From IMG/VR virus record IMGVR_UViG_3300025137_000254, positions 1-25,820 of that record: 25,820 bases of DNA; one strand, given 5' to 3'. This stretch comes from a virus. Each line of letters begins with the position of its first letter. Position 1 is the stretch's first letter. The translations under genes and the position numbers were made by a program. The notes under the pieces are model-generated. The model was not told where the DNA came from, made no database searches, and saw nothing but the letters and a program-made list of their open reading frames with translations. Positions 2,616 to 25,546 of this stretch are shown in pieces.

Positions 2616-2789
2616 GTGTCTACAACACGAAGAGGTAAAATAGTTTACAAACCCCCTGAAAAGTCATATACCAATGTAAACATTGAAGAGACACTTCATG
2701 GGTTTAAGTTATATCGGGATGGGTCTAGTAAGCCCTTTAGCGTAATACCATTTTCTGCGGTAACACAAATTATATACGAGCGTGAATAA
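2616..2789 (+). CDS. 57-aa protein of unknown function, GTG start
   Basis: The frame runs from GTG at 2616 to TAA at 2787-2789 and ends one base before the next ATG. The start is chosen because it is the only start codon in this frame after the upstream stop and lies 26 nt from a perfect TATA box. The protein begins with a basic stretch (STTRRGKIVYKPPEK) and ends in a short beta-hairpin-like part (FSVIPFSAVTQIIYERE). No ribosome binding site is visible, in line with a leaderless mRNA. I do not recognise the family. An antisense frame also crosses the region but has neither a promoter nor operon context. Confidence 0.6.
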   Translation: MSTTRRGKIVYKPPEKSYTNVNIEETLHGFKLYRDGSSKPFSVIPFSAVTQIIYERE

Positions 2790-2790
2790 A

Positions 2791-3189
2791 ATGAGCGAAA
2801 ATAACACAACAATTGAACCAGCAGAAACGTGCCTTAACGCACTAAACGAAACGATAGACTGTATAAGTTTATCATCGTCATCACTTTTAGGTGATATAGA
2901 GATATTGTTACTAGCAGTAGTAGCACTAGCAGGAATTGGGGTTTGGGGATACAAAAAGTTTTTATCCCTTAATTCAGACGGAAAGATAACTCTAGATGAG
3001 TTATTAGATTCTGTGGATGATGTTAAGGAAAAGGTAGAAGAAGCAAAAGCAGAATTAAAGACTATTGATGACACATTAGAGTCTAGAAATGTTGCTGAGT
3101 TAAAGGAAATACTAAAAGAAAAAGGTCTTGCCGTAAGCGGTAAGAAAGCAGACCTTATTGCCCGATTGAAGGCGAGCATGGATGAATGA
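2791..3189 (+). CDS. Single-span membrane protein with C-terminal SAP domain
   Basis: A 132-aa protein from the ATG at 2791; a GTG three codons earlier is in frame but overlaps the preceding gene. Residues 1-35 are a polar N-terminus with NNT and NET sequons and two cysteines (C14, C24). Residues 37-56 form one transmembrane helix (IEILLLAVVALAGIGVWGY). Residues 61-70 (NSDGKITLDE) resemble half an EF-hand loop. Residues 72-95 are a charged coiled coil, and residues 98-128 match the SAP motif (RNVAELKEILKEKGLAVSGK, then KADLIARLKA). SAP domains bind DNA. The positive KK after the membrane span predicts N-terminus out and SAP inside. This gives a protein that could tether DNA or a nucleoprotein to the membrane. 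It is the first of three adjacent membrane proteins. Confidence 0.75.
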   Translation: MSENNTTIEPAETCLNALNETIDCISLSSSSLLGDIEILLLAVVALAGIGVWGYKKFLSLNSDGKITLDELLDSVDDVKEKVEEAKAELKTIDDTLESRNVAELKEILKEKGLAVSGKKADLIARLKASMDE

Positions 3190-16800: not shown

Positions 16801-17848
16801 CGTTTGTAAAGATTTATCATTCGTTAAAGGTTCTATGGTTAATGTTACCGACAAAGGTCTTGAGTTAACAAATGAACCTATGGTTATCAAAAGCGTATCA
16901 TGGAATATTTCTGCTGGTAATACGGAAAAAGTTATATTTGATTTGGAAAGAGATGAGAGCGTAGAAAAAGGAGATATGTTAAGTTATCTTTTCCCTAATA
17001 CTAACAATGCTAGACAACGTTCAAAAAATGTTGGTGGTGGTTCAGGTGGTGGTGGTTATCAAGACAATGATAACGACAATCAACCAATGCCGCCTGATAA
17101 TTTTGGCGACCATTTTTTGCCACCGTTTAAACCAAGACCTAACGGGACTATGGATTCGACTGGAACATCTTATGACGCAGGTGGTAACTTAGGTGTCGGA
17201 CAATTATCACATACACTTTATAGTAAAATGAAAGGTAGAATGAATCTAGACAATGACAGTCTATCAGCCGGAACTAAGTTCGGTGTATTAGGAGCAAGCA
17301 AACCTAGTATTACCCCTACTACCATGAAAGGTATAGAAGGTATGGATGTAGATATATCTACAAGTAGTGGTAACACTACGGTTACTTCCGATGGTTACGT
17401 TTTTTCAGGCAAAGGTTTACAAGGAACAGAAGGACAATTAGTTTCTCAAGATTCTAGCATAGAAACTACTTTTAATGTGCCAAGAGATATAGTAAGTAAC
17501 AGAATGAGCATACAGGCTTATATTACACACGGTCCTATTGTTTCTTCATCGTCTACTAATGCTGTATTGTATGTAACAGTTACAATTCCCGAAACAGGAA
17601 AGACTTTTACTAATGAAATAAAAGTAAGGACTGGTTTATCTAATCAATCAATTGCTATAATGCCTCTAAGACCAATAGAAGGATTAAAAAATGCTGGTAG
17701 AAATGTTAAAGTTACGGTAACAAGAAAAGCAGGTATAGGTAATGATGATGCACATACAACAAGCCTTACTATACATAACTTAGAAATAAAAATGCACAGG
17801 GCTTCTGCTCATACTACTTCAAAGAGCAATCAATTCTCACCAATATGA
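10829..17848 (+). CDS. Giant tail hub / tip protein
   Basis: A 2339-aa protein that overlaps the tape measure stop by one base (TAATG), with GTGA 5 nt earlier. The N-terminal part up to about residue 420 includes a concanavalin-like beta-sandwich (DNVWLDVDFVFNYTDNNFDV). Residues about 430-545 (EVEIQNLDITQSVNGVSSCK, VWRGEVSSFNIKQ, LLTLQAFDSMSELDKQIPLW) are the first half of a phage tail hub (gp27/Gp37-like) domain. The second half appears only at about 1590-1780 (SLGSIISKIQEKSGYG, then DDGRYGYIADPYIALGEISS), so roughly 1000 residues of other beta-rich domains are inserted between them. A Gly-rich hinge lies near 2068-2077, followed by a Pro/Asp-rich linker and a C-terminal beta domain. It follows the tape measure as tip proteins do. 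Enzymatic residues for peptidoglycan or glycan cleavage were not recognised. Confidence 0.75.
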   Translation: MVRAVTQKYQIWLAGYYDDFNGARAIPDDRNQPTDTSYTALKSHFGNPMNGEAFLNPRLRFSIEERLEDSALTSDNKVSDENNNALQNDGIFEWLTFDDTRLSKNEWEGRSQLQYPDGNIPNRYKFNNDTSDYAEGYQRFINGHNSDASYIVPTGDNDSTFGRADMKTHDSIQYNLKKAGLSTGNTGSKGNFIQKANLAGVFTGEIVAHNSAQTTPTNLNQDIYSPSKKPFLVIQSSRLNSSNSATTPTIIYDGPLNTRLDGDIFTVRLAVQSAKVTGDWDDAGVKFEIGFPVSQAGLLNDSGYTGAPAIDYTLDLSSISYNTQGLLVNPNFATPEVTNDNVWLDVDFVFNYTDNNFDVYINGSSHATNIPMNDADKNGSSDGATTASNLYGYQFTVTNEGTAGNHGYVSYLLLDRAGLVRYLTDDFTTTEEVEIQNLDITQSVNGVSSCKVIIADDPQDSGTSRGTASSNYLLNIKSLFVSSSPLNWNLIVFADTDNRIDRPVWRGEVSSFNIKQNKRSRLLTLQAFDSMSELDKQIPLWDVGQKGLDTSEESNDYWSYDAKGFRDAMYLGVAKLKLLDGNVGFDENTNYRKSSDQRTQLGSGHPIQMYNNENIYGPNDIEDSYEGYGIRGFQQATGSSNTKIIMQDSGHNITASVNNIINVKASNGFTKIGATVLTPSAGTSTSIQVSATDVPYSSVSGAGKIVYMGKFMGETIASEERFLEDLNQPATQQDRDDWKNFTRRFPITQGNISDKLQIWFDTEPDLKIGDLFYINQKNDNASILLSVAGSGGYGSYNRRTKVTSIKKIRDSYANNTDYLTKGSTSNSFYWVVSTDQDVIHSSVGGEIGTYATSVASNGGTNFLSGTSRFSYSNVNATITNVNVPNLTNIQYRPIHARWMRDLPQSLWFQYHFGTINKKPLDEPPPRPQTGYLQSTQSASYSSVSSSQTISSASTIIEISESAYDAAPNAGIAELWITKDLSPANYVSANIFKEKFIYQAKVAVSGSPNRWYLLGVKYITGNYTITSNNRYTENSVERRMYLRFQNISNDYKHIWLLWSDMRNDGLADADGSQRKKDFGLQYPLNKNYDFDLYFADQVDEKGNIDKFGSLKVGEDLDVWNVDTTIDPITQKGFSKPIDYSSPQAITLQESSSKLRIMTGNTGTIASGDFIYLINTNSHDGMHVVDSVSSNTHIHTTTTYVGNVVGTGGAFYCPVVGSESDFDKYHDWEDKAGALLVIDASKFFNLNSNANGGKTGQSAGGRTDLVDYVVESDGERAGFPALIDNYWTEALSSFQTTGDLALEHPNQNILISSATLASDGFTEGYKGLPVNDVTIFADEGIGKLVTRMNEDGNNSITNYFHWDGRLTSEFSSTGTLTVGSQDTYEGMLYRPISRTGHAHITAGVTEGMVLRRTATDNTITELNILKVESETEIWVFDDTNWATSDTYVIPTQLANIFIIDGSQFTVDNEIDYVNLEENLWNVYHANSIGIADIGIANLNLGTTEGGETTPVAYEVHATVYSEYMLRLMMHINGFYKNPNGGTYWDSDKIRMLWNAAIMDTWLPSAKVTSIYDINNVPVTNIMSDDDSYGSVVDTRTSSLGSIISKIQEKSGYGSNGTYQTFTYGIGRDNRFEFRPNYNSGILLNRDNMTINNINVDLSSQITNVRVYYNNGSSFADWPAVNLNDTTSWKILEFSDIVSSNEALLIAQQEYNKYKKNPLSLRAEPFMDGTVSNKMIDDGRYGYIADPYIALGEISSVSNYEYVTNWTRIGLGGAPFNGMVNALNGNMNIELSDLGSRYGSSKEAQSGTATDDINWKHNYYWYGSNSISHAVQVVHIPNKTPLVSTQTGEHLRMWVDLKAGQSGTDIDNAEFTIYLSDYSFSANKDKTGILTDATYQETLDVKHSGFYEIDIPVTYGAQANATMVISFNAEYCRALLRHRCGLPTHANILKQVATNTDSIFPIGCRTYTGSTEIGSDGNGAFRNGRAIWYAPRVHVCKDLSFVKGSMVNVTDKGLELTNEPMVIKSVSWNISAGNTEKVIFDLERDESVEKGDMLSYLFPNTNNARQRSKNVGGGSGGGGYQDNDNDNQPMPPDNFGDHFLPPFKPRPNGTMDSTGTSYDAGGNLGVGQLSHTLYSKMKGRMNLDNDSLSAGTKFGVLGASKPSITPTTMKGIEGMDVDISTSSGNTTVTSDGYVFSGKGLQGTEGQLVSQDSSIETTFNVPRDIVSNRMSIQAYITHGPIVSSSSTNAVLYVTVTIPETGKTFTNEIKVRTGLSNQSIAIMPLRPIEGLKNAGRNVKVTVTRKAGIGNDDAHTTSLTIHNLEIKMHRASAHTTSKSNQFSPI

Positions 17849-18535
17849 TTCTCTCAAAGCAATTATAGCCTTTGCCTTTCTTCTAGTGATACCATTTATC
17901 ATCATTAATTCTTTTTGAGTTACTTTTTTCTTAAGTATATTATTTATACTACCAAAATGATTTAACAATCCTTCTGCTTGTTTTACCGTAATACCTTGTA
18001 TAGCAATCAACATTCGGATTCTGTTATCTAATTCTGCATTTTTTATCTCGTTTTGTTTTTGAGTATCTAATCTATATTGAGCCATACCCTGTTGCGTATG
18101 ATTTATTACCAACCATTCTACAAAATCATCCATAGTAGTTACTTCCATATATTTAATTTTCGGAAACCTTTGATAAAATGTGGTTTTAAATTGCTTCATA
18201 ACTTTTTTCATACGGGCGATTTCAATGGCCTTCATCTTAGCGGTAGGTCTACCATGCTTTAGAGGTATGAAAGGCTTTAATTCAGTCCCATAGACTACTA
18301 AAAAGGGGTTAGCACACGCCTCTTCCAAATCTCTTAACTGTTCTACTATCGTTCTCGTTCTTCCGTAGCCCATTATAGACCTGTAAAGGTCGTTGATTTC
18401 TTTAGCCTCTATTCCCCATTCGCCCATAGTATAATCAGACGCTTTCATCCGACATACTTTTACCTCATCTTTACCCATTCTCATTAATAGTTTATTAACT
18501 ACTTTAGGGTTTTCTCGGTCATCTACTAATAACAT
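17837..18535 (-). CDS. XPF/Mus81-type ERCC4 structure-specific endonuclease
   Basis: A 232-aa protein. The nuclease domain starts with LLVDDREN (D5, D6, R7, E8), followed by MKASDYTMGEW and GIEAKEINDLYRSI. The catalytic ERKx3D of XPF is here E43-A-K45-x3-D49. Residues 175-230 are two helix-hairpin-helix motifs (IRMLIAIQGITVKQAEGLLN, then MMINGITRRKAKAIIALRE), which bind branched DNA. The family cuts flaps, forks and recombination intermediates. I take the ATG at 18535 because the conserved domain begins there; the longer frame would need a TTG inside the upstream gene. No PIP-box is seen at the C-terminus. It overlaps the tail hub gene on the other strand by 12 bp at the 3' ends. Confidence 0.85.
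   Translation of the reverse strand: MLLVDDRENPKVVNKLLMRMGKDEVKVCRMKASDYTMGEWGIEAKEINDLYRSIMGYGRTRTIVEQLRDLEEACANPFLVVYGTELKPFIPLKHGRPTAKMKAIEIARMKKVMKQFKTTFYQRFPKIKYMEVTTMDDFVEWLVINHTQQGMAQYRLDTQKQNEIKNAELDNRIRMLIAIQGITVKQAEGLLNHFGSINNILKKKVTQKELMMINGITRRKAKAIIALRESYW
17912..17929 (+). terminator. Possible T-run terminator for the structural operon
   Basis: Two T-runs (T5 at 17912-17916 and T6 at 17924-17929) lie on the plus strand 64-81 nt after the tail hub stop, inside the convergent nuclease gene. Archaeal RNA polymerase ends at such runs, but they also reflect lysine codons on the other strand. Confidence 0.25.
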
Positions 18536-18567
18536 ATATACTTCACAGTATGTTGCATTATTAAAGA

Positions 18568-18726
18568 CTACCAACCTTTTGTGGTATATACTTCACCGTC
18601 TATGTCTACCATATAAGAATTACATTTACCGCAAAACTTTTCTACGGCTGTCTGCGAAGTCCAATCGGACCCACAGCATACGCATTTTGTTGCTTGTTCT
18701 AGTGTTATCATACTCATTGTCATCAT
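18568..18726 (-). CDS. Small zinc-ribbon protein next to the XPF nuclease
   Basis: A 52-aa frame from ATG at 18726 to TAG at 18568. GAGGTAAT just before the ATG is a good ribosome binding site and overlaps the primase stop, 4 nt away. Cys pairs C15-x2-C18 (CVCCGSD) and C32-x2-C35 (CGKC) form one zinc ribbon, and the rest is a short beta tail (YMVDIDGEVYTTKGW). It is the fourth zinc ribbon of the module and, like the others, sits just before a DNA enzyme, here the XPF-like nuclease 32 nt downstream. Function unknown: accessory DNA-binding subunit or regulator. Confidence 0.65.
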   Translation of the reverse strand: MMTMSMITLEQATKCVCCGSDWTSQTAVEKFCGKCNSYMVDIDGEVYTTKGW

Positions 18727-18730
18727 ATTA

Positions 18731-19723
18731 TTACCTCTTTACCCCATCGTGAGCCCAACATGGACCAGCGTCTACACAACATTTCGTAGGAACGTGTTCA
18801 TAATCTATGATGCTGTTTATGTGGAATCTTGATGTGTGTTCGTTATAGTCTCTCCAATTTAGTTTAGAGATAAAATTAAGTATGCTTTCGACGCTTTGTG
18901 TTTTTTCTTCTCTAGACAAAGTAGAAGGGTGTGCAAACCATCTTAAGTTTTCTGCTAGGTGTTGAACCAACGCTATCCTAACAGTGTGCTTAGGGTTTTC
19001 TTGTCTCATAGCCCTCTCTAGACAAGGCGGAATGGGTATCTGCCCTGCACTACCTATCTTACCGTTAAACTCTCCCATAGGAGCCGCTTCTTGCGTCGGA
19101 TTATTTGCTATCCATTTTCTAATGTCAAATCCCTTTTCAGGTTTCTTTCCTCTAAACGGGTCTAAATGTAACAAGTTTTTCTGTGGCTCTACTGGTATGT
19201 TATAAGAAAGAGGATTTACCATAAAAATACTAGCGTCTATATTGACAGACCATTTACCTCTCTTTGGATTATATGTATCAGGGATACGTGTTAATTTCTG
19301 TGGAAAACCTACACCATCTAAAGTTTTAAGACCCTTAGCCTTATCCTTTTGGTATCTCTCTAGGTGCTTTGCTATTGCTGTGCCTTTTATTGCTTCATCA
19401 AAGAATTGGTGAACATGAAAACCTCTTCCAGTAAAAACCAATCTAACGTCACCATTTAGTCTACCTAGTAGTGTGGATACATCCTTCTTCACATCTTCCA
19501 TACAACCATCCTCTAACATATCAAAATCCCACCATGCTCTATCCATAACCACTGATTCTACATCGTATTTCCATGTGCGGTAGGTATCCCTTCGCTCAAA
19601 AGAATATAAAGAAGTATAGCAGGATGCTTTACCGTTTATTTTCTGTATGTAATTATTGAAATCATCAACACTTTCACATGGGGTTCGGCGTAGCCCTATC
19701 TCACGTGGAAATCCAAGAGGCAT
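18731..19723 (-). CDS. Archaeo-eukaryotic primase, PriS-PriL fusion
   Basis: A 330-aa protein. The catalytic half has the metal-binding D66-F-D68 (WWDFDML), the nucleotide-binding TGRGFHVH at 98-105 (SxH-like H103) and a third acidic residue probably at D163 (VNID). Residues about 230-322 resemble the C-terminal iron-sulfur domain of the large subunit: PPC (C234), a helical stretch (HTVRIALVQHLAENLRW), then TKCCVDAGPC with C315, C316 and C322, giving four cysteines for a 4Fe-4S cluster. Cellular archaea keep PriS and PriL as separate proteins, so this is a compact single-chain primase of the type seen in some archaeal mobile elements. It synthesises the primers for the PolB encoded upstream. 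GAGAGGAAT serves as ribosome binding site; the gene starts 2 nt after a zinc-ribbon gene. Confidence 0.82.
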   Translation of the reverse strand: MPLGFPREIGLRRTPCESVDDFNNYIQKINGKASCYTSLYSFERRDTYRTWKYDVESVVMDRAWWDFDMLEDGCMEDVKKDVSTLLGRLNGDVRLVFTGRGFHVHQFFDEAIKGTAIAKHLERYQKDKAKGLKTLDGVGFPQKLTRIPDTYNPKRGKWSVNIDASIFMVNPLSYNIPVEPQKNLLHLDPFRGKKPEKGFDIRKWIANNPTQEAAPMGEFNGKIGSAGQIPIPPCLERAMRQENPKHTVRIALVQHLAENLRWFAHPSTLSREEKTQSVESILNFISKLNWRDYNEHTSRFHINSIIDYEHVPTKCCVDAGPCWAHDGVKR

Positions 19724-19725
19724 AT

Positions 19726-19881
19726 TTATTCCTCTCTTTTTACCGACTGACTACTACCACATTCACAAGCATACAAAAGTATTTTTTCGGGAACATTACC
19801 TTCTTGACCGGTTATTCTCCATATTTCTTCTGTGCCTTCCCACATATCATCAGAACCACAGGCTAGACATTCTATTAACAT
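19726..19881 (-). CDS. Small zinc-ribbon protein next to the primase
   Basis: A 51-aa frame from ATG at 19881 to TAA at 19726. C5-x2-C8 (CLACGSD) and C39-x-C41 (CECG) form the zinc ribbon. Between them lies a helical to beta stretch (EEIWRITGQEGNVPEKILLY) as in typical ribbons. It starts 8 nt after the Cas4-like stop and ends 2 nt before the primase ATG. It shares C-x2-C-G-S-D with the zinc ribbon next to the XPF nuclease, so the two may be related copies. The spacing and Cys pattern make it a real gene although it is short. Confidence 0.65.
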   Translation of the reverse strand: MLIECLACGSDDMWEGTEEIWRITGQEGNVPEKILLYACECGSSQSVKREE

Positions 19882-19889
19882 AAAACTAC

Positions 19890-20744
19890 TCACACTTCCC
19901 ACCCGCTTATTCCGTTCATTTCCGCTTCACAGTTAAGTGCGAAGTCACACCACATAGGACAAAAATAGTCATTCCATTTCATAGGCCATTGGTGGGAAAT
20001 AAGTGAGTCAATAGTGTCATATAAAGATGACTCGAAGGAATTATATGAACGCTCTAACATCGGCTCTAGTAAAGCCCATCCACGCTCAGGCCCTACCCAC
20101 ATTGTCTTACCCCTTTTGTTACCCTCTAATAATAATTTATCGCTACCATCTTCCGGTATCTCGTAATCGGGTGTTATATATAAAAAGTGAGTAACTTCAT
20201 CATAATCCATCAACCTAAGTAATCGTGTATAATAAATTAATTCTTTGCGAGTTCTTCCTAATTTAGACATACCCATGTTACCAGTCTTTAACTCTACTAG
20301 AATCAAGCCACCAGTAGTAGGGTGTCTTATAACACCGTCTATTAGCCCTACCCATACCAAAGGATGGTTTTCTAAGACTTCATATACTTCATGCTTGACT
20401 TCCGCCTCTACTACTTCAAACCCACCCAAGTCGTGTGCTATCTGATGTAATAGGATGTTCAAAGAATCTACCCCTTTATCATCACCTACACCCTCTTCTA
20501 CGGAAACCTCAATCATTCTTTCAGGACTTTCCAAAAGCCCTGCTTCCATAACAGTATGTATCTGCGTTCCCCTAATCATTTCTTCTGTCGGTGGTGCTGT
20601 GGGTATGTCTGCTACATATCTCCAATAAAACTGTCTAGGACACATCTTGTATGTCATATATGATGACTTACTAACTCTCAATGCGTCACAAGCGTGGTTG
20701 TGTTGAATGGTATCTGACGGATTATATGAAGAAGTTATGTTCAC
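19890..20744 (-). CDS. Cas4/RecB-family PD-(D/E)XK nuclease with 4Fe-4S cluster
   Basis: A 284-aa protein from GTG at 20744. Motif order is C35 (YKMCPRQFYWRYV), H63 (RGTQIHTVMEAGL), D136 (VGLIDGV), E151-L-K153 (LILVELKTGN), then the RKELIYYTRLL helix that normally carries the QxxxY motif but here lacks the Gln. C262, C266 and C272 at the C-terminus complete the four-Cys iron-sulfur site. Cas4/AddB-type enzymes resect DNA ends 5'-3' or 3'-5'. In archaeal viruses Cas4-like proteins commonly belong to recombination-dependent replication; there is no CRISPR array or other cas gene here. It pairs with the RecA-like ATPase as a likely end-processing/annealing system. The start is 4 nt after the zinc-ribbon stop. 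Confidence 0.85.
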   Translation of the reverse strand: MNITSSYNPSDTIQHNHACDALRVSKSSYMTYKMCPRQFYWRYVADIPTAPPTEEMIRGTQIHTVMEAGLLESPERMIEVSVEEGVGDDKGVDSLNILLHQIAHDLGGFEVVEAEVKHEVYEVLENHPLVWVGLIDGVIRHPTTGGLILVELKTGNMGMSKLGRTRKELIYYTRLLRLMDYDEVTHFLYITPDYEIPEDGSDKLLLEGNKRGKTMWVGPERGWALLEPMLERSYNSFESSLYDTIDSLISHQWPMKWNDYFCPMWCDFALNCEAEMNGISGWEV

Positions 20745-20748
20745 AATT

Positions 20749-21042
20749 TCACTCTTCCTCTAACTCAGTGCCATTGTCCCAGTTTTCAAAAGACGGTTGT
20801 TCAGAACCGTATATATTGTCTCCACATAAAGGACAGGTTTCGTTCCTTTCTATATTGTTTAAAATAGGTATCATTAAATCTTTACCACAAGTATTACAGG
20901 TAGGTTTTTCCATCTTACCCATTTCGTCTAGTAGATTATATAATATAGTTTGTGTTTTAATCAAATCATTACCAATCATATTTATCGCTAGTGCTACTTC
21001 ACTTACAAACTTTTTAAAATCTTCTTGCTTTACTTTACTCAT
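20749..21042 (-). CDS. Zinc-ribbon protein with helical N-terminus, next to the Cas4-like nuclease
   Basis: A 97-aa protein. The ATG at 21042 is preferred over the one six codons earlier because GGTGA lies 4 nt before it and the TATA box is centred 26-27 nt before it. Residues 1-45 form an alpha-helical, coiled-coil-like region (KFVSEVALAINMIGNDLIKT). C49-x2-C52 (CNTCG) and C70-x2-C73 (CPLCG) form a zinc ribbon, and the tail is acidic (NGTELEEE). It is the first gene of the second minus-strand operon and is followed after 4 nt by the nuclease. The helical part may mediate dimerisation. Function unknown. Confidence 0.72.
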   Translation of the reverse strand: MSKVKQEDFKKFVSEVALAINMIGNDLIKTQTILYNLLDEMGKMEKPTCNTCGKDLMIPILNNIERNETCPLCGDNIYGSEQPSFENWDNGTELEEE

Positions 21043-21055
21043 ATCTTCACCACAT

Positions 21056-21075
21056 ATCATTTCACATATAAACTA
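21056..21075 (-). promoter_or_regulatory. Promoter of the second replication operon (TATA box TTTATATG)
   Basis: On the minus strand this reads TAGTTTATATGTGAAATGAT. The TATA box (21065-21072) is centred 26-27 nt before the start at 21042. It overlaps the TAG stop of the polymerase gene. It matches 19 of 20 bases of the promoter at 25560-25579. Confidence 0.72.
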
Positions 21076-23310
21076 TACCCATTCTGTTCTATGTATCCCA
21101 CAGGCCACGTTATGTATAGGCTGTGCATCCCAAGACGCTAACTGATAGTATGGTATAATTTTTCTGAGAATGAATCTTTCTATTAGTATTTTTACCCCTA
21201 TTTTAGTTATACCATCTATGTCTTGAGGTTTATCGAATGCTATATACTGCCCTTTATCATTTATTGAAACTAAAAAGAAGGAGCCCTTTCTATAACCCTT
21301 ACCTAAGTTTTCATTAGCCCAAGCCGCACCAGCCGACGAACCCGACAATACTTTATATTTAGACAAGTCTCTCTCCAATTTACCCTTCATACATAACTCT
21401 TCGGGGTTCACCTTACCATCCATTATATCACAAACCAATTGCTTATTCAAATCAGTTATCTCACTTTCACTTTTACCTGAAAGGATACCTTCTATTGTAG
21501 TCTGCATAGCCTGTTTCATAACAGAAGGCATCCTTGTTTGTTTTAGTTCAATACCTTTAACGTAAATATTAGGTTCGTGATATTCTCCGTCGCTCCAAGA
21601 TACTTTTGCGGTATATCTATTCTTAGCAACCAATATAATTCTAGGACACCACTTTTCAAACTGTGTTATTATAGGGCTCATTCTATTGTTAATAGACTCT
21701 AGCATTTGTTCACCCATTTCAGGGCTAGGTATTCGACAGAATACTGAATCTGTATGTCCGTATATTACCTTGAAACCGACTCTCTCCGCTTCTTCCATCA
21801 ATTGACCTAGAGTTTTTCTAGAAGTGTATGTTATAGCCGCCGCTATATCAGGGTGATACATACCATATTTAGCATCACCACAGACACCATACATTGAAGC
21901 AACAAGAGTCTTAGCGGCAAACTGCATTGTGTCCCACTTTCTCTTCTTCTTTCCTTCTGTCATAATCATTTTCATCTTAAAAATATTTCTTAGGTCTGTC
22001 ATTTTATCCATTTGTCTGACTAACAAACCTTTATCCTTTTGTGCAAACTTAGTTCCATTACCACAATCCACACCTTCGGGGTCTAATGTATCCCAAGATA
22101 TGTTATACTTATCAGCATTACTGTGATACATAGCCTTTATATCTAGGATTCCCACGTTGTCATACACACCCGCTTCAACGTCTAAAATATCCGCACCTTC
22201 GTAATCTACTTTACTAAACTGTGGTTTACTAGGTATCCTTCTTTCAAAGGTTTTATCGGTTAAAACTAACTGTGAAAACATCTTAGTAATAAACGGTGTT
22301 GATTTGATTTCGCACTGAACAATATGTTGTAGGGAAGTATAATAATCTAAAGCGTTCACAGCCTCATCCAGTTTAGGTAGTAGTCTTACATCCTGCCTAC
22401 AATAGTGTATGTATAAATCCCTGTCCTCGAACCAAGATTCATCATGCCCTTTCTCTAACTCTACTTTCTTTTCCCCTAATATTTCTAGTGCCACATCGTT
22501 TAATTTATACGATGGTAACTTACCGTTTTTCAATTCCCATAATTTAGAAACACCAATCATCAAATCTATACAGTTTCTACCGACAATAGGTTGAGCCCAG
22601 TCACCAAACTCATACCTTATCTTTCTATGTGGGCTGAGAGTTAACTCAGACAAACCACAAGCCCTACATCTTTCTATGATTTGTTTCATGTCTGCCCCTA
22701 CAACATACCAACCGGTGATTATGTCGGGGTCGCACTTTTTCAAGTGTCTCATAAAATGTATTAACATAGACCTTTCATCAACAAAACCCAAAGCAGGTGT
22801 TTCGTATTTGTATTCTCCTAATTCAGAATGGGGTTTACCTTCTCCGTCTTTTAACCCCTGTGTCGCAAGCGTCGCCTCTACAAACCATACATATTCTTTT
22901 CCGGTAAAATTATCATAGGCTACTATGACTCTCATTTGTCCTGTTGTTGGCGACCATTCACAATCTAAATACCAAGTCCTATGTTCATAGTTTGGTATAG
23001 GTTCGTTACCTTGATTTACATAGTCTGCTAAAACCTGATTAGTATATGGTATATTCGCTTCCCATGTTTGACCTGATTTAGCCAATTGTTTTACATCGTA
23101 TTCTGTGGCACAAATTATCTTAGTTAGTTTTTCCCCAAAAAGACCAGTATAACCATCTTCCTTCTTTACCGCTTCCGCTATGTAAGGTGCATCTTCGGTC
23201 TTTACGAAACAGTAAGGCCAATGACCTTTAATAGTTTTTTCGTATCTTTCTTTGTTAGAAGTTCTTCCACGTATGATTATATCTCGGCCTCTACCCCGTT
23301 CAATTATCAT
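21073..23310 (-). CDS. polB: Family B DNA polymerase
   Basis: A 745-aa protein, compact for the family. Exonuclease motifs: ExoI D116-x-E118 (YLDCEW), ExoII region PDIITGWYVVGAD with D207 but not the usual N and F, ExoIII Y303-x3-D307 (YCRQD). Polymerase motifs: A with D390 (GILDIKAMYHS in place of DxxSLYPS), B K467 to G475 (KTLVASMYG), C Y517-G-H-T-D521-S, and KNRY at 563-566. D390 and D521, the two metal ligands, are present. The first Asp of the usual YGDTDS is His. This is the main replicative polymerase of the virus and works with the clamp encoded upstream; no clear PIP-box was seen. It begins inside the end of a zinc-ribbon gene (11-nt overlap), the last gene of the first operon. Confidence 0.92.
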   Translation of the reverse strand: MIIERGRGRDIIIRGRTSNKERYEKTIKGHWPYCFVKTEDAPYIAEAVKKEDGYTGLFGEKLTKIICATEYDVKQLAKSGQTWEANIPYTNQVLADYVNQGNEPIPNYEHRTWYLDCEWSPTTGQMRVIVAYDNFTGKEYVWFVEATLATQGLKDGEGKPHSELGEYKYETPALGFVDERSMLIHFMRHLKKCDPDIITGWYVVGADMKQIIERCRACGLSELTLSPHRKIRYEFGDWAQPIVGRNCIDLMIGVSKLWELKNGKLPSYKLNDVALEILGEKKVELEKGHDESWFEDRDLYIHYCRQDVRLLPKLDEAVNALDYYTSLQHIVQCEIKSTPFITKMFSQLVLTDKTFERRIPSKPQFSKVDYEGADILDVEAGVYDNVGILDIKAMYHSNADKYNISWDTLDPEGVDCGNGTKFAQKDKGLLVRQMDKMTDLRNIFKMKMIMTEGKKKRKWDTMQFAAKTLVASMYGVCGDAKYGMYHPDIAAAITYTSRKTLGQLMEEAERVGFKVIYGHTDSVFCRIPSPEMGEQMLESINNRMSPIITQFEKWCPRIILVAKNRYTAKVSWSDGEYHEPNIYVKGIELKQTRMPSVMKQAMQTTIEGILSGKSESEITDLNKQLVCDIMDGKVNPEELCMKGKLERDLSKYKVLSGSSAGAAWANENLGKGYRKGSFFLVSINDKGQYIAFDKPQDIDGITKIGVKILIERFILRKIIPYYQLASWDAQPIHNVACGIHRTEWV

Positions 23311-23476
23311 CTTCTCCCACGTTCCTTCTTAAGACATACATATTATTACAGTTTTCACATTCGTATAAATCTATACCTTCATCGACCTCACAAGAAAATA
23401 ACCACGAAAAGGTAGCCCCGCAGTTATCACACGCCCCTTTAGGGGGTGAGTTAGTCTTACTAATAGTATCGTTCAT
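23300..23476 (-). CDS. Small zinc-ribbon protein next to PolB
   Basis: A 58-aa frame from ATG at 23476 to TGA at 23300. C16-x2-C19 (CDNCG) and C40-x2-C43 (CENC) form a zinc ribbon, with an extra C29 between them. The N-terminus (NDTISKTNSPPKGA) is probably disordered. It overlaps the preceding gene by ATGA and the polymerase start by 11 nt, so the three genes are tightly coupled in translation. It is the first of four zinc ribbons that each precede a replication or repair enzyme. It may be a polymerase accessory factor, but the link is positional only. Confidence 0.68.
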   Translation of the reverse strand: MNDTISKTNSPPKGACDNCGATFSWLFSCEVDEGIDLYECENCNNMYVLRRNVGEDDN

Positions 23477-23787
23477 GTAAAATCTTCTCCCATATCTTCT
23501 AATCCTGCTATTTCACTTAAGTAGTTTTCTCTATCTCTACCCTCTTTACTCAATAAAGAAGGGGCTTGGTATTGTATGTCGTCTGATAATTCTAATCTTA
23601 CATTAATAGAAGCAATATACCTATCTCCTGTTTTCTTATCGGTCATTATGTAGGTATTAATACCTTCTCTCCCTGCCATAGCACTGTGTTCGTAGGTCAA
23701 TTGATTACCAGCACCTATCCAAATTATCTTCAAATCTCCGTCGGGGCTACTAGTAACATTAACCGGCCCTAAATTCCATATAACCAT
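23473..23787 (-). CDS. 104-aa protein of unknown function in the replication operon
   Basis: The gene starts 2 nt after the clamp stop. The first 70 residues are predicted beta-rich (LKIIWIGAGNQLTYEHSAMA, then YIASINVRLELSDD), and the last 35 are acidic with NYLSEIAGLEDMGEDFT at the end. A beta-rich core with an acidic tail recalls single-stranded DNA-binding proteins, and the operon has no other such gene in view, but I see no motif proving this. No cysteine pairs or nucleotide-binding motifs are present. Confidence 0.6.
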   Translation of the reverse strand: MVIWNLGPVNVTSSPDGDLKIIWIGAGNQLTYEHSAMAGREGINTYIMTDKKTGDRYIASINVRLELSDDIQYQAPSLLSKEGRDRENYLSEIAGLEDMGEDFT

Positions 23788-23789
23788 AC

Positions 23790-24614
23790 TTAAAGCACCA
23801 CCGATGTTTGAAAGATGAAGTCACCATCACCTAGATTTATAACCATAGGATTACCCATACCCAGTTCAGTGAAATCCCATATACCTATATTAACCTCATT
23901 ACTTAGGTTAGCGAAGATATACTCAAACCCACCTGCGTATGTAGCAGAAGTCGGTGTATCCGGTAATCCCTTAACATCTAAAACCGTATTAGTTTTACCC
24001 TTAAGGTCTTTACCTACATCTATATTTAATTTCCCATCACTATAAGAAATATCATACCTGTTAAACTTTTGTCCGTTCATAGAATCACATCTGAATGCTT
24101 CGTATAAATCAGTAGTATCTAAATCACTAAGTAATAAAGTTACGGGAAAACTACGACCATCGTTAGTATTATATTCGTATTTATCTACATTTATCTTTTC
24201 CGCCAACGCTCTAGATTTATCAGACCATTGTGATATAGTCTGCGGCGTGTGAGGGAAGGCTCTAGCCTCTTTACTAGCACTGATAGTAGTCTGTTTATTA
24301 CTACTCTTAAATTTAATTTTACCGTCACTACTGGTTAATGTTAGTAGACCACCGTGATATTTTAAGATACCTAATGTGGTTTCTATATCAGTAATCACTA
24401 TCTCACCTTGTCCTGTGCATGGTATAGACAATCGCATCAAAGAAGTCACACCGTCTTTTACTAAAGAGCAAAAGGAGAGTCTACCCCCATCTGCTTTTAA
24501 GATAAGACTATACAATTGCACACGTGGCGAACCATCAATCGTATGCTTTCTTTGTGCTAATTTAAGCAACCATGTTAGTGACGCTTTTTCTACAACAATA
24601 CTCAAGTCAACCAC
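23790..24614 (-). CDS. Sliding clamp (PCNA-like)
   Basis: A 274-aa protein, slightly longer than cellular archaeal PCNA (about 245-250). It shows the two-domain clamp pattern: N-terminal helix VVEKASLTWLLKLAQ, strands with RLSFCSLVKDGVTSLMRLSI, the inter-domain region around residues 110-150, and a C-terminal part (GGFEYIFANLSNEVNIGIWD, then NPMVINLGDGDFIFQTSVV) equal to the last helix and strands of PCNA. It tethers the polymerase to DNA. Start is GTG at 24614, 13 nt inside the ATPase gene; a TTG three codons later is also possible. Divergence is high, so the call rests on pattern plus its place beside PolB. Confidence 0.7.
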   Translation of the reverse strand: MVDLSIVVEKASLTWLLKLAQRKHTIDGSPRVQLYSLILKADGGRLSFCSLVKDGVTSLMRLSIPCTGQGEIVITDIETTLGILKYHGGLLTLTSSDGKIKFKSSNKQTTISASKEARAFPHTPQTISQWSDKSRALAEKINVDKYEYNTNDGRSFPVTLLLSDLDTTDLYEAFRCDSMNGQKFNRYDISYSDGKLNIDVGKDLKGKTNTVLDVKGLPDTPTSATYAGGFEYIFANLSNEVNIGIWDFTELGMGNPMVINLGDGDFIFQTSVVL

Positions 24615-25546
24615 TCTAAACCGATAAACTCAAACTTACCATTACTGATACGTGCTACGTCGTGTATAGAACCAACCTTCTCTATGTGTATGCCTTTCAT
24701 CTCTTCTATCTTGGCTCTTACTACCCATTCATTATCCTTTAGGTTTCTATCGCCCTCGACACCTGTCGCTAGGTCGGCTTTCTTTTGGTATCTAGACAGG
24801 AATATCTGTTGTGAAAACTTTCTCATTGTTCCTTTCTCCCATTCCGGTCTGTGACCTACGGTCATTAAAACTTTCTTACCTGTTCCATCATCCATGTATT
24901 GAGACACTGGTTTTAAGTGAAAAGTAAAATACACCTTAGCCACATTTAGACTATGTAATCGTGTGAGAACATTTCTGTATAGACGGTTACGCTCTCTCCA
25001 TTCTTTCTGATTGAATGTTCCATCTTCTGTTTCAATGATACCTCTACTAAGTAGAGATGTTCGCATAGCGTGTTCACACCATTTTAGGAAGGTCGAGCCA
25101 CCATCAAAGATAACACCACCGACTGATTCAGGGTCTTGTTTTACCTTGTCAGCAAGTATGTTCACATACCATGAAGTCTTATCTAGTAGAGCCTTATAAT
25201 CTACGTTGTTATCTTCGTCGAAGATAGAGTCGTCTGTCTCATCGTGCAACGGAAGAACCACTACATTAGGTGAGTCAGGATATACTACGTCAACAGTAGA
25301 ACGTGCTGAGTTATCAATGTCAAACAGATATACAGTTTTACCTGCTTCTATCTCGTCTTTAAGTAAGGACAGTGCTAGTCCTGTTTTAAGGGTGTTTTCG
25401 TGTCCTACGAAGGACATACGATGTTCTATTCGTTTCACCCTATTGTTATCGAATAAATCTCGATAATAAGATTCGTCAAACTTTGTTGACGGTTCTGCGG
25501 TCTTTGTATCAGCATTTTGGTTTGGTGCTTTTGCTCCCCAAGTCAT
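24602..25546 (-). CDS. RecA-like ATPase (Sak4/RadA-type recombination protein)
   Basis: A 314-aa protein. The first 40 residues are polar. The P-loop is G48-H-E-N-T-L-K54-T55, followed by a GLALSLL helix; the Gly normally before Lys is Leu. YLFDIDN (73-79) and Walker B GVIFDGGS with D148 follow, then a KVYFTFHLKPVSQ strand that matches the sensor region of RecA-fold phage ATPases. There is no cellular RadA N-terminal helix-hairpin-helix domain, so a Sak4-like single-strand annealing or recombination protein is more likely than a full RadA. It is the first gene of the first replication operon and probably acts with the Cas4-like nuclease. The ATG is 26-27 nt from the TATA box, giving a leaderless start. 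Confidence 0.75.
   Translation of the reverse strand: MTWGAKAPNQNADTKTAEPSTKFDESYYRDLFDNNRVKRIEHRMSFVGHENTLKTGLALSLLKDEIEAGKTVYLFDIDNSARSTVDVVYPDSPNVVVLPLHDETDDSIFDEDNNVDYKALLDKTSWYVNILADKVKQDPESVGGVIFDGGSTFLKWCEHAMRTSLLSRGIIETEDGTFNQKEWRERNRLYRNVLTRLHSLNVAKVYFTFHLKPVSQYMDDGTGKKVLMTVGHRPEWEKGTMRKFSQQIFLSRYQKKADLATGVEGDRNLKDNEWVVRAKIEEMKGIHIEKVGSIHDVARISNGKFEFIGLEWLT

Follow-up and report, generated by a model that had tools for sequence, protein, structure and literature searches.

Small accessory subunits of family B DNA polymerases have been described before. In Sulfolobus, PBP1 is a small subunit of PolB1 that binds the polymerase through a cysteine-containing domain, and its glutamate-rich tail promotes recycling of the polymerase and limits strand displacement (PMC5418573). 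The p12/POLD4 subunit of Pol delta, again a family B polymerase, is a small dimerising accessory subunit that interacts with PCNA and assists in recruiting it to the polymerase (PMC6424025). Small zinc-finger genes are also already known in the replication regions of archaeal viruses, and the Hafunaviridae haloviruses HRTV-25, HRTV-27 and HJTV-2 encode small proteins with two cysteine pairs around their PolB, Cas4 and PriS-PriL primase genes. Here we analyse the IMG/VR virus record IMGVR_UViG_3300025137_000254, positions 1-25,820 (25.8 kb, the window hereafter), whose replication block carries four small zinc-ribbon genes, ZR1 to ZR4, among the genes of a family B polymerase (PolB), a Cas4-like nuclease, a primase and an XPF-type nuclease. 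A sequence-only reading of the window had held that no such system was known, which the Sulfolobus subunit and the haloviral genes annotated as 'Zn finger' contradict. The haloviral genes differ from the ribbons of the window in that they show no regular one-per-junction order and match the profiles of the ZR families only weakly, and in the papers that we read we found no description of regular slots of this kind or of the probable transfer of a clamp motif that we report below.

The four ribbons are genuine accessory genes of the operon. They are conserved genes in conserved slots, belong to several unrelated families and are under purifying selection, and the observation made from the window is confirmed and more general than first reported. 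All four frames, each with two cysteine pairs (Table 1), are present on the minus strand between the replication enzymes as had been described, including the CxxCGSD motif common to ZR3 and ZR4 and the range of spacings to the next gene, from an overlap of 11 nucleotides (nt) at ZR1 through 4 nt at ZR2 and 2 nt at ZR3 to 32 nt at ZR4. The last value takes the XPF gene to start with the ATG at 18535, a start supported by the 32-37 nt spacing after ZR4 that recurs in many relatives. The length of ZR2, 97 amino acids (aa), is counted from its likely ATG, with the frame open to 21060, and ZR3 has 58 aa from a GTG or 51 aa from an internal ATG. Elsewhere in the window, two such cysteine pairs occur in just two frames of 30-130 aa, both of them antisense to long genes.

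The same frames were sought in related viral genomes, as the sequence-only reading had proposed, and there the order recurs, the cysteines are conserved and the slots are fixed. Scans with PolB gave 97 loci and a primase scan gave 80, many of them on the same contigs, and the gene order recurs in about 100 IMG/VR contigs. Ribbon homologues with invariant cysteines are found in dozens of contigs, the exception in the ZR1-ZR4 alignments being ZR3 in loci L066-L074, where the cysteines are respaced. We counted ribbons, non-homologous ones included, at each junction of 30 non-redundant loci, whose PolBs are less than 90% identical. A sense ribbon frame lies at the clamp-PolB junction in 17/30 loci, at PolB-Cas4 in 27/30, at Cas4-primase in 28/30 and at primase-XPF in 22/30, while antisense ribbon frames at these junctions number 3, 2, 1 and 0, respectively. 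The control junction between the ATPase and the clamp has a ribbon in one of 29 loci. Of 37 primase-centred loci, 34 have a ribbon ahead of the primase and 23 have one behind it. Between the window and locus L001, the proportion of nonsynonymous differences (pN) is well below that of synonymous differences (pS) for ZR1 (0.12/0.61), ZR2 and ZR4; for ZR3, too, pN is the lower of the two. The homologues, the antisense controls and the pN/pS values rule out that the ribbons are spurious frames. As a separate observation, the pS of ZR3 in this comparison (window 19726-19902, L001:10724-10900) is low, 0.23 against 0.55-0.69 in the neighbouring genes, and this is not consistent in other pairs.

These counts bear on the hypothesis that the early operons of archaeal viruses are generally rich in small zinc ribbons of mixed function, such as host takeover or anti-defence, and that such genes simply persist in the spaces between the conserved enzymes. 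The haloviruses, in which numerous small 'Zn finger' genes surround PolB, Cas4 and primase in no regular alternation, would fit it, as would the ZR1 and ZR4 slots, which are refilled by unrelated ribbons and have been lost in some lineages. However, the copies of ZR2 and of ZR3 are orthologous across the loci and persist in about 90% of the non-redundant ones over large divergence, the ATPase-clamp control junction is almost free of ribbons (1/29), and random filling would not so consistently yield zinc ribbons. We consider this hypothesis rather unlikely.

The sequence-only reading had offered serial duplication of one regulator as another origin. The cysteine pairs of all four ribbons and the CxxCGSD motif of ZR3 and ZR4 would be expected from it, and ZR1 aligns with ZR4a and ZR2 at hhalign probabilities of 78-85% over about 30 columns. 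The other pairs of the window's four mostly have low probabilities, with alignments limited to the cysteine knuckles, so that profile comparison gives no common family for all four; their lengths and architectures differ too, ZR2 having a long helix and a tail. Duplication of a single ribbon gene is hardly credible on these data.

A role of the ribbons as DNA-binding or clamp-loading adaptors had also been suggested, and comparative evidence for an adaptor to the clamp was found for ZR2 alone. In the alignment of 36 ZR2 copies the N-terminal part varies, and four cysteines and one proline are invariant. After the ribbon, most of them have the sequence Q-x-[ST]-hydrophobic-x-x-[WFY], which is like a PCNA-interacting peptide (PIP), and then an acidic end, EEE or similar in nearly all copies. 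In the AlphaFold model of ZR2, residues 6-40 form a helix, the ribbon follows, and the loose tail makes a short turn at the motif. A loose PIP-like motif lies within the last 28 residues of 20 out of 26 non-redundant ZR2 proteins versus 0.1 expected in shuffled tails, a test that overstates the significance as the ZR2 tails are related sequences. Of the complete ZR2 copies, 56/68 have the strict or the loose motif, and no other family of the module has it at a comparable frequency.

The C-terminus of the polymerase shows the reverse. A terminal PIP-like motif is present in 0/83 complete viral PolBs, with two internal regular-expression matches only, and the PolBs of this lineage terminate in GLxxxxW[VLI] or similar. 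When genome contigs were searched with the profile of the viral PolB, 51 of the 73 PolBs obtained, which are archaeal for the most part, had a strict Q..[ILM]..[FWY] end, typically QTTLGGF or QKTLFGY, and the haloviral PolBs, unlike the viral PolBs here, retain their own PIP-like end in 4/4 (QTGLGAFV, QTGLAAFC or QRGLADYV). In HRTV-25, a 43-aa CxxC protein encoded two genes downstream of PolB (L179:10581-10712) has the PIP-like end QTGLGDFV.

As the tail motif is on ZR2, none is at the viral PolB terminus, and the PolBs of the relatives have one, we propose that the ribbons are accessory genes among which ZR2 might be a small PolB subunit tying the polymerase to the viral clamp. We favour this explanation tentatively, at somewhat short of an even chance. 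The terminal PIP motif that the related cellular archaeal and haloviral PolBs keep would have been lost from the viral PolB and would now be encoded by the small gene next to it. The long N-terminal helix of ZR2 may serve self-association or PolB binding, the ribbon could provide the core contact, the PIP-like segment would enter the clamp pocket, and the acidic end might help to free the polymerase, as in Sulfolobus PBP1. The junction and primase-centred counts, the PCNA fold of the viral clamp, the clamp loader encoded by the relatives, and the fact that ZR2 parts from Cas4 more often than from PolB were counted in favour of this explanation.

If the adaptor proposal is right, ZR2 would work like PBP1 and p12. 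Both PBP1 and ZR2 have about 97 residues, conserved cysteines (metal-binding in PBP1) and an acidic C-terminal tail, and PBP1 works with a family B polymerase. PBP1 is cellular, ends in a stretch of 19 residues that includes 12 glutamates, and is reported to carry a C2H2-type finger, whereas in ZR2 a long helix stands at the N-terminus and the PIP-like segment is followed by a short acidic end. The likeness is one of architecture, and no match to PBP1 came up when PDB chains were searched with the ZR2 profile. The likeness to p12, a eukaryotic protein, is in the proposed role; we know of no zinc ribbon in p12/POLD4.

Several observations weigh against a clamp adaptor, besides the overstated significance of the shuffle test. 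Judged from their residues, the ZR2 motifs are not canonical eight-residue PIP boxes, and the stricter pattern alone is found in only 27/68 copies. In most of them the hydrophobic residue is F, I or V, and the aromatic residue is followed by D, A or E. The second aromatic residue at position 8 is absent from the aligned ZR2 copies, where D, A, E or another non-aromatic residue stands; the tails of archaeal cellular PolBs also mostly lack it, with a hydrophobic eighth residue in 3/73. ZR2 has no motif in L024, L032, L033, L075, L080-L087 and L091, ZR2 itself was not detected in L094-L098, and in none of the loci where ZR2 or its motif is missing did we see PolB regain a PIP. The conserved GLxxxxW[VLI] terminus of PolB may itself be the clamp contact. 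The enzyme partners of ZR1, ZR3 and ZR4 are candidates by operon position. Foldseek with the ZR2 model gave weak ribbon matches only, the best to an archaeal MCM N-domain (E value 0.12), with which the profile search agrees (E value 0.11); we take this likeness as a lead only.

Which enzyme each ribbon stays with can be examined through insertions, the counts below being of sequences and not of independent events. Insertions of more than 100 nt separate PolB from ZR2 in 3/26 loci and ZR2 from Cas4 in 8/26, and the primase from ZR4 in 1/20 and ZR4 from XPF in 4/20. None (0/9) lies between ZR1 and PolB, and ZR1 overlaps the PolB start in 9/9 non-redundant copies. ZR3 is tight on both sides, with such insertions in 3/27 and 2/27 loci. 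We lean towards the pairs ZR1-PolB, PolB-ZR2 and primase-ZR4 rather than the pairing of each ribbon with the enzyme that follows.

The sequence-only reading had assigned to every enzyme a dedicated subunit of its own, encoded directly before it, and this interpretation finds support only in part. The fixed and conserved positions stand, and the order and spacings in the window and about 20 close relatives agree with the proposal. The direction of pairing is not supported, since the insertions join ZR2 to PolB and ZR4 to the primase, the preceding enzymes, at least as well. XPF follows the primase without a detected ribbon in 14 of the 37 primase-centred loci, Cas4 has no preceding ribbon in L094-L098, and the refilling of the ZR1 and ZR4 slots by unrelated ribbons also speaks against it. 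The primase-XPF slot uses at least four ribbon types, and the clamp-PolB slot holds ribbons, fusions of a ribbon to a helix-turn-helix (HTH) domain, and treble-clef or HTH proteins across the relatives. One subunit per downstream enzyme therefore seems very improbable to us. Ribbons of families 4a and 4b were observed in tandem in the primase-XPF gap (L041:12692-13043, L045:9155-9446), with no detectable relationship between the two.

No other ribbon stands before the primase as regularly as ZR3, which most likely serves this enzyme. ZR4, more loosely than ZR3, is most likely associated with the primase and ZR1 with PolB, through candidate protein or nucleic-acid contacts. In one clade (L066, L067, L072 and L074) the ZR3 homologues have respaced cysteines (VCAKDEGTGDCEW...CACG; L066:4296-4457, L067:11521-11682, L072:11519-11680, L074:8331-8534), and ZR4 was not detected there. 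One of 14 ZR3 members matches PF01096 (Zn_ribbon_TFIIS, 0.011) weakly, ZR3 also has a weak match to RPB9 (1qyp, 0.053), and ZR1 and ZR4 gave no informative match.

The weak similarity of ZR3 to the TFIIS and RPB9 ribbons would suit an alternative in which the ribbons act as small factors in transcription or bind RNA polymerase, like the archaeal CPxCG zinc-finger micro-proteins, their place in the operon reflecting early expression and translational coupling and not contact with the enzymes. The overlaps or spacings of a few nt point to coupled translation, and a ribbon fused to a winged-helix-like domain is encoded upstream in the same region. Brz of Halobacterium, a small zinc-finger protein, is encoded directly upstream of its target (PMC2253796). 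However, a single operon has no need of one regulator per gene, the slots are fixed among relatives whose PolBs are about 50% identical, and the clamp-binding-like tail of ZR2 would be left unexplained. We regard such regulators as somewhat unlikely.

Extending the adaptor proposal, we speculate that the clamp-binding tail has moved from PolB to ZR2, that the primase is flanked by ribbon subunits of its own, and that the replisome is wired by swappable zinc-ribbon adaptors; this wider view is possible but doubtful. If it is true, unrelated ribbons would replace one another at the same operon position. If ZR2 is indeed a detached tether to the clamp, these widespread viruses would show a polymerase that has handed its processivity motif over to a partner of 97 residues, and one of the many annotated but unexplained small zinc-ribbon proteins of archaeal viruses would gain a concrete function. 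The set of clamp, clamp loader, PolB and ZR2 is small enough for in vitro reconstitution.

The window contains the late portion of a replication operon from an uncultured tailed virus of archaea, most likely a relative of the Poseidoniales magroviruses. Its minus strand encodes, from 25546 to 17837, a P-loop ATPase, the sliding clamp, p104, ZR1, PolB, ZR2, the Cas4-like nuclease, ZR3, the primase, ZR4 and XPF (Table 1), and tail and structural genes lie on the plus strand to the left of this block. PolB, the XPF/ERCC4 protein and the PD-(D/E)XK nuclease have clear Pfam identities. Sequence searches of PDB and Pfam gave no confident match for the clamp, whose identity was resolved by fold prediction: the AlphaFold model (predicted local distance difference test score 89) matches sliding clamps in Foldseek with an E value of about 5e-12, and VIA-align places it on PCNA with Z 19.8 and a root-mean-square deviation of 2.4 over 218 residues, i.e. 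a PCNA fold. The primase has no confident match in Pfam or PDB and no named phage relative in INPHARED; its motifs DFD, TGRGFHVH and (I)PPC with C-terminal cysteines fit a PriS-PriL fusion of the type annotated in haloviruses. The C-terminal cysteines of the Cas4-like nuclease are conserved, and among named phages it matches only nucleases of Campylobacter phages, weakly. The ATPase gene is conserved before the clamp among the relatives, and Pfam and PHROG searches with it gave no confident match. The p104 slot is filled by HTH or other proteins in distant relatives.

Table 1. Genes of the replication block of the window, in order of transcription.
Feature	Coordinates	Strand	Remarks
P-loop ATPase (RecA/RadA/Sak4-like, by inspection only)	24602..25546	-	the module's first gene within the window
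Sliding clamp (PCNA-like)	23790..24614	-	predicted structure
p104, function unassigned	23473..23787	-	fast-evolving; between clamp and ZR1; 43% identical to L001 counterpart
ZR1, 58-aa zinc ribbon	23300..23476	-	CDNC/CENC; 11-nt overlap with PolB start
Family B DNA polymerase (PolB)	21073..23310	-	PF00136 1.7e-30, PF03104 1.8e-07, PHROG 262 7.5e-80
ZR2, 97 aa	20749..21042	-	CNTC/CPLC; helix, zinc ribbon, PIP-like motif (QPSFENW), acidic tail (EEE)
Cas4-like PD-(D/E)XK nuclease, putative Fe-S cysteines	19890..20744	-	PF12705 1.2e-09; PHROG exonuclease 5.9e-10
ZR3, zinc ribbon (TFIIS/RPB9 type, weak)	19726..19902	-	CLAC/CEC; precedes primase
Archaeo-eukaryotic primase, PriS-PriL fusion type	18731..19723	-	motif-based assignment
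ZR4 (family 4a), 52-aa zinc ribbon	18568..18726	-	CVCC/CGKC; between primase and XPF
XPF/ERCC4-type nuclease with helix-hairpin-helix domain	17837..18535	-	PF02732 5.5e-09, PF14520 8.8e-08

The magroviruses (Magrovirales) resemble this lineage in gene content, encoding PolB, PCNA, a clamp loader, an archaeo-eukaryotic primase, an ERCC4 nuclease and a chaperonin, and they likewise have replication and structural modules in opposite orientation. Their genomes are 90-110 kb, compared with up to about 74 kb for the related contigs found here. By this likeness of the gene set, the host is probably a marine archaeon; no host link was found through GTDB contigs, where the PolBs are only about 25% identical. 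In the relatives, genes for an RFC-like clamp loader and for a chaperonin of the GroEL type lie upstream of the replication block, the virus-encoded chaperonin being found for example at L001:3510-5078 and L029:4056-5555. A winged-helix-like protein with a C-terminal ribbon (MSANNRR..., L001:339-737) is encoded upstream of the clamp loader and is kept in most of the long loci examined.

Two further observations concern the plus strand of the window. A small SAP-domain protein (PF02037, 1.2e-11) is encoded at 2782-3189 amid the structural genes. At 932-1537 and 1634-2203, a collagen-like GPTGPT protein (PF01391) adjoins a 2-oxoglutarate-Fe(II) oxygenase (PF13640, 4e-16), and the oxygenase is possibly a prolyl hydroxylase with the collagen-like fibre as its substrate.

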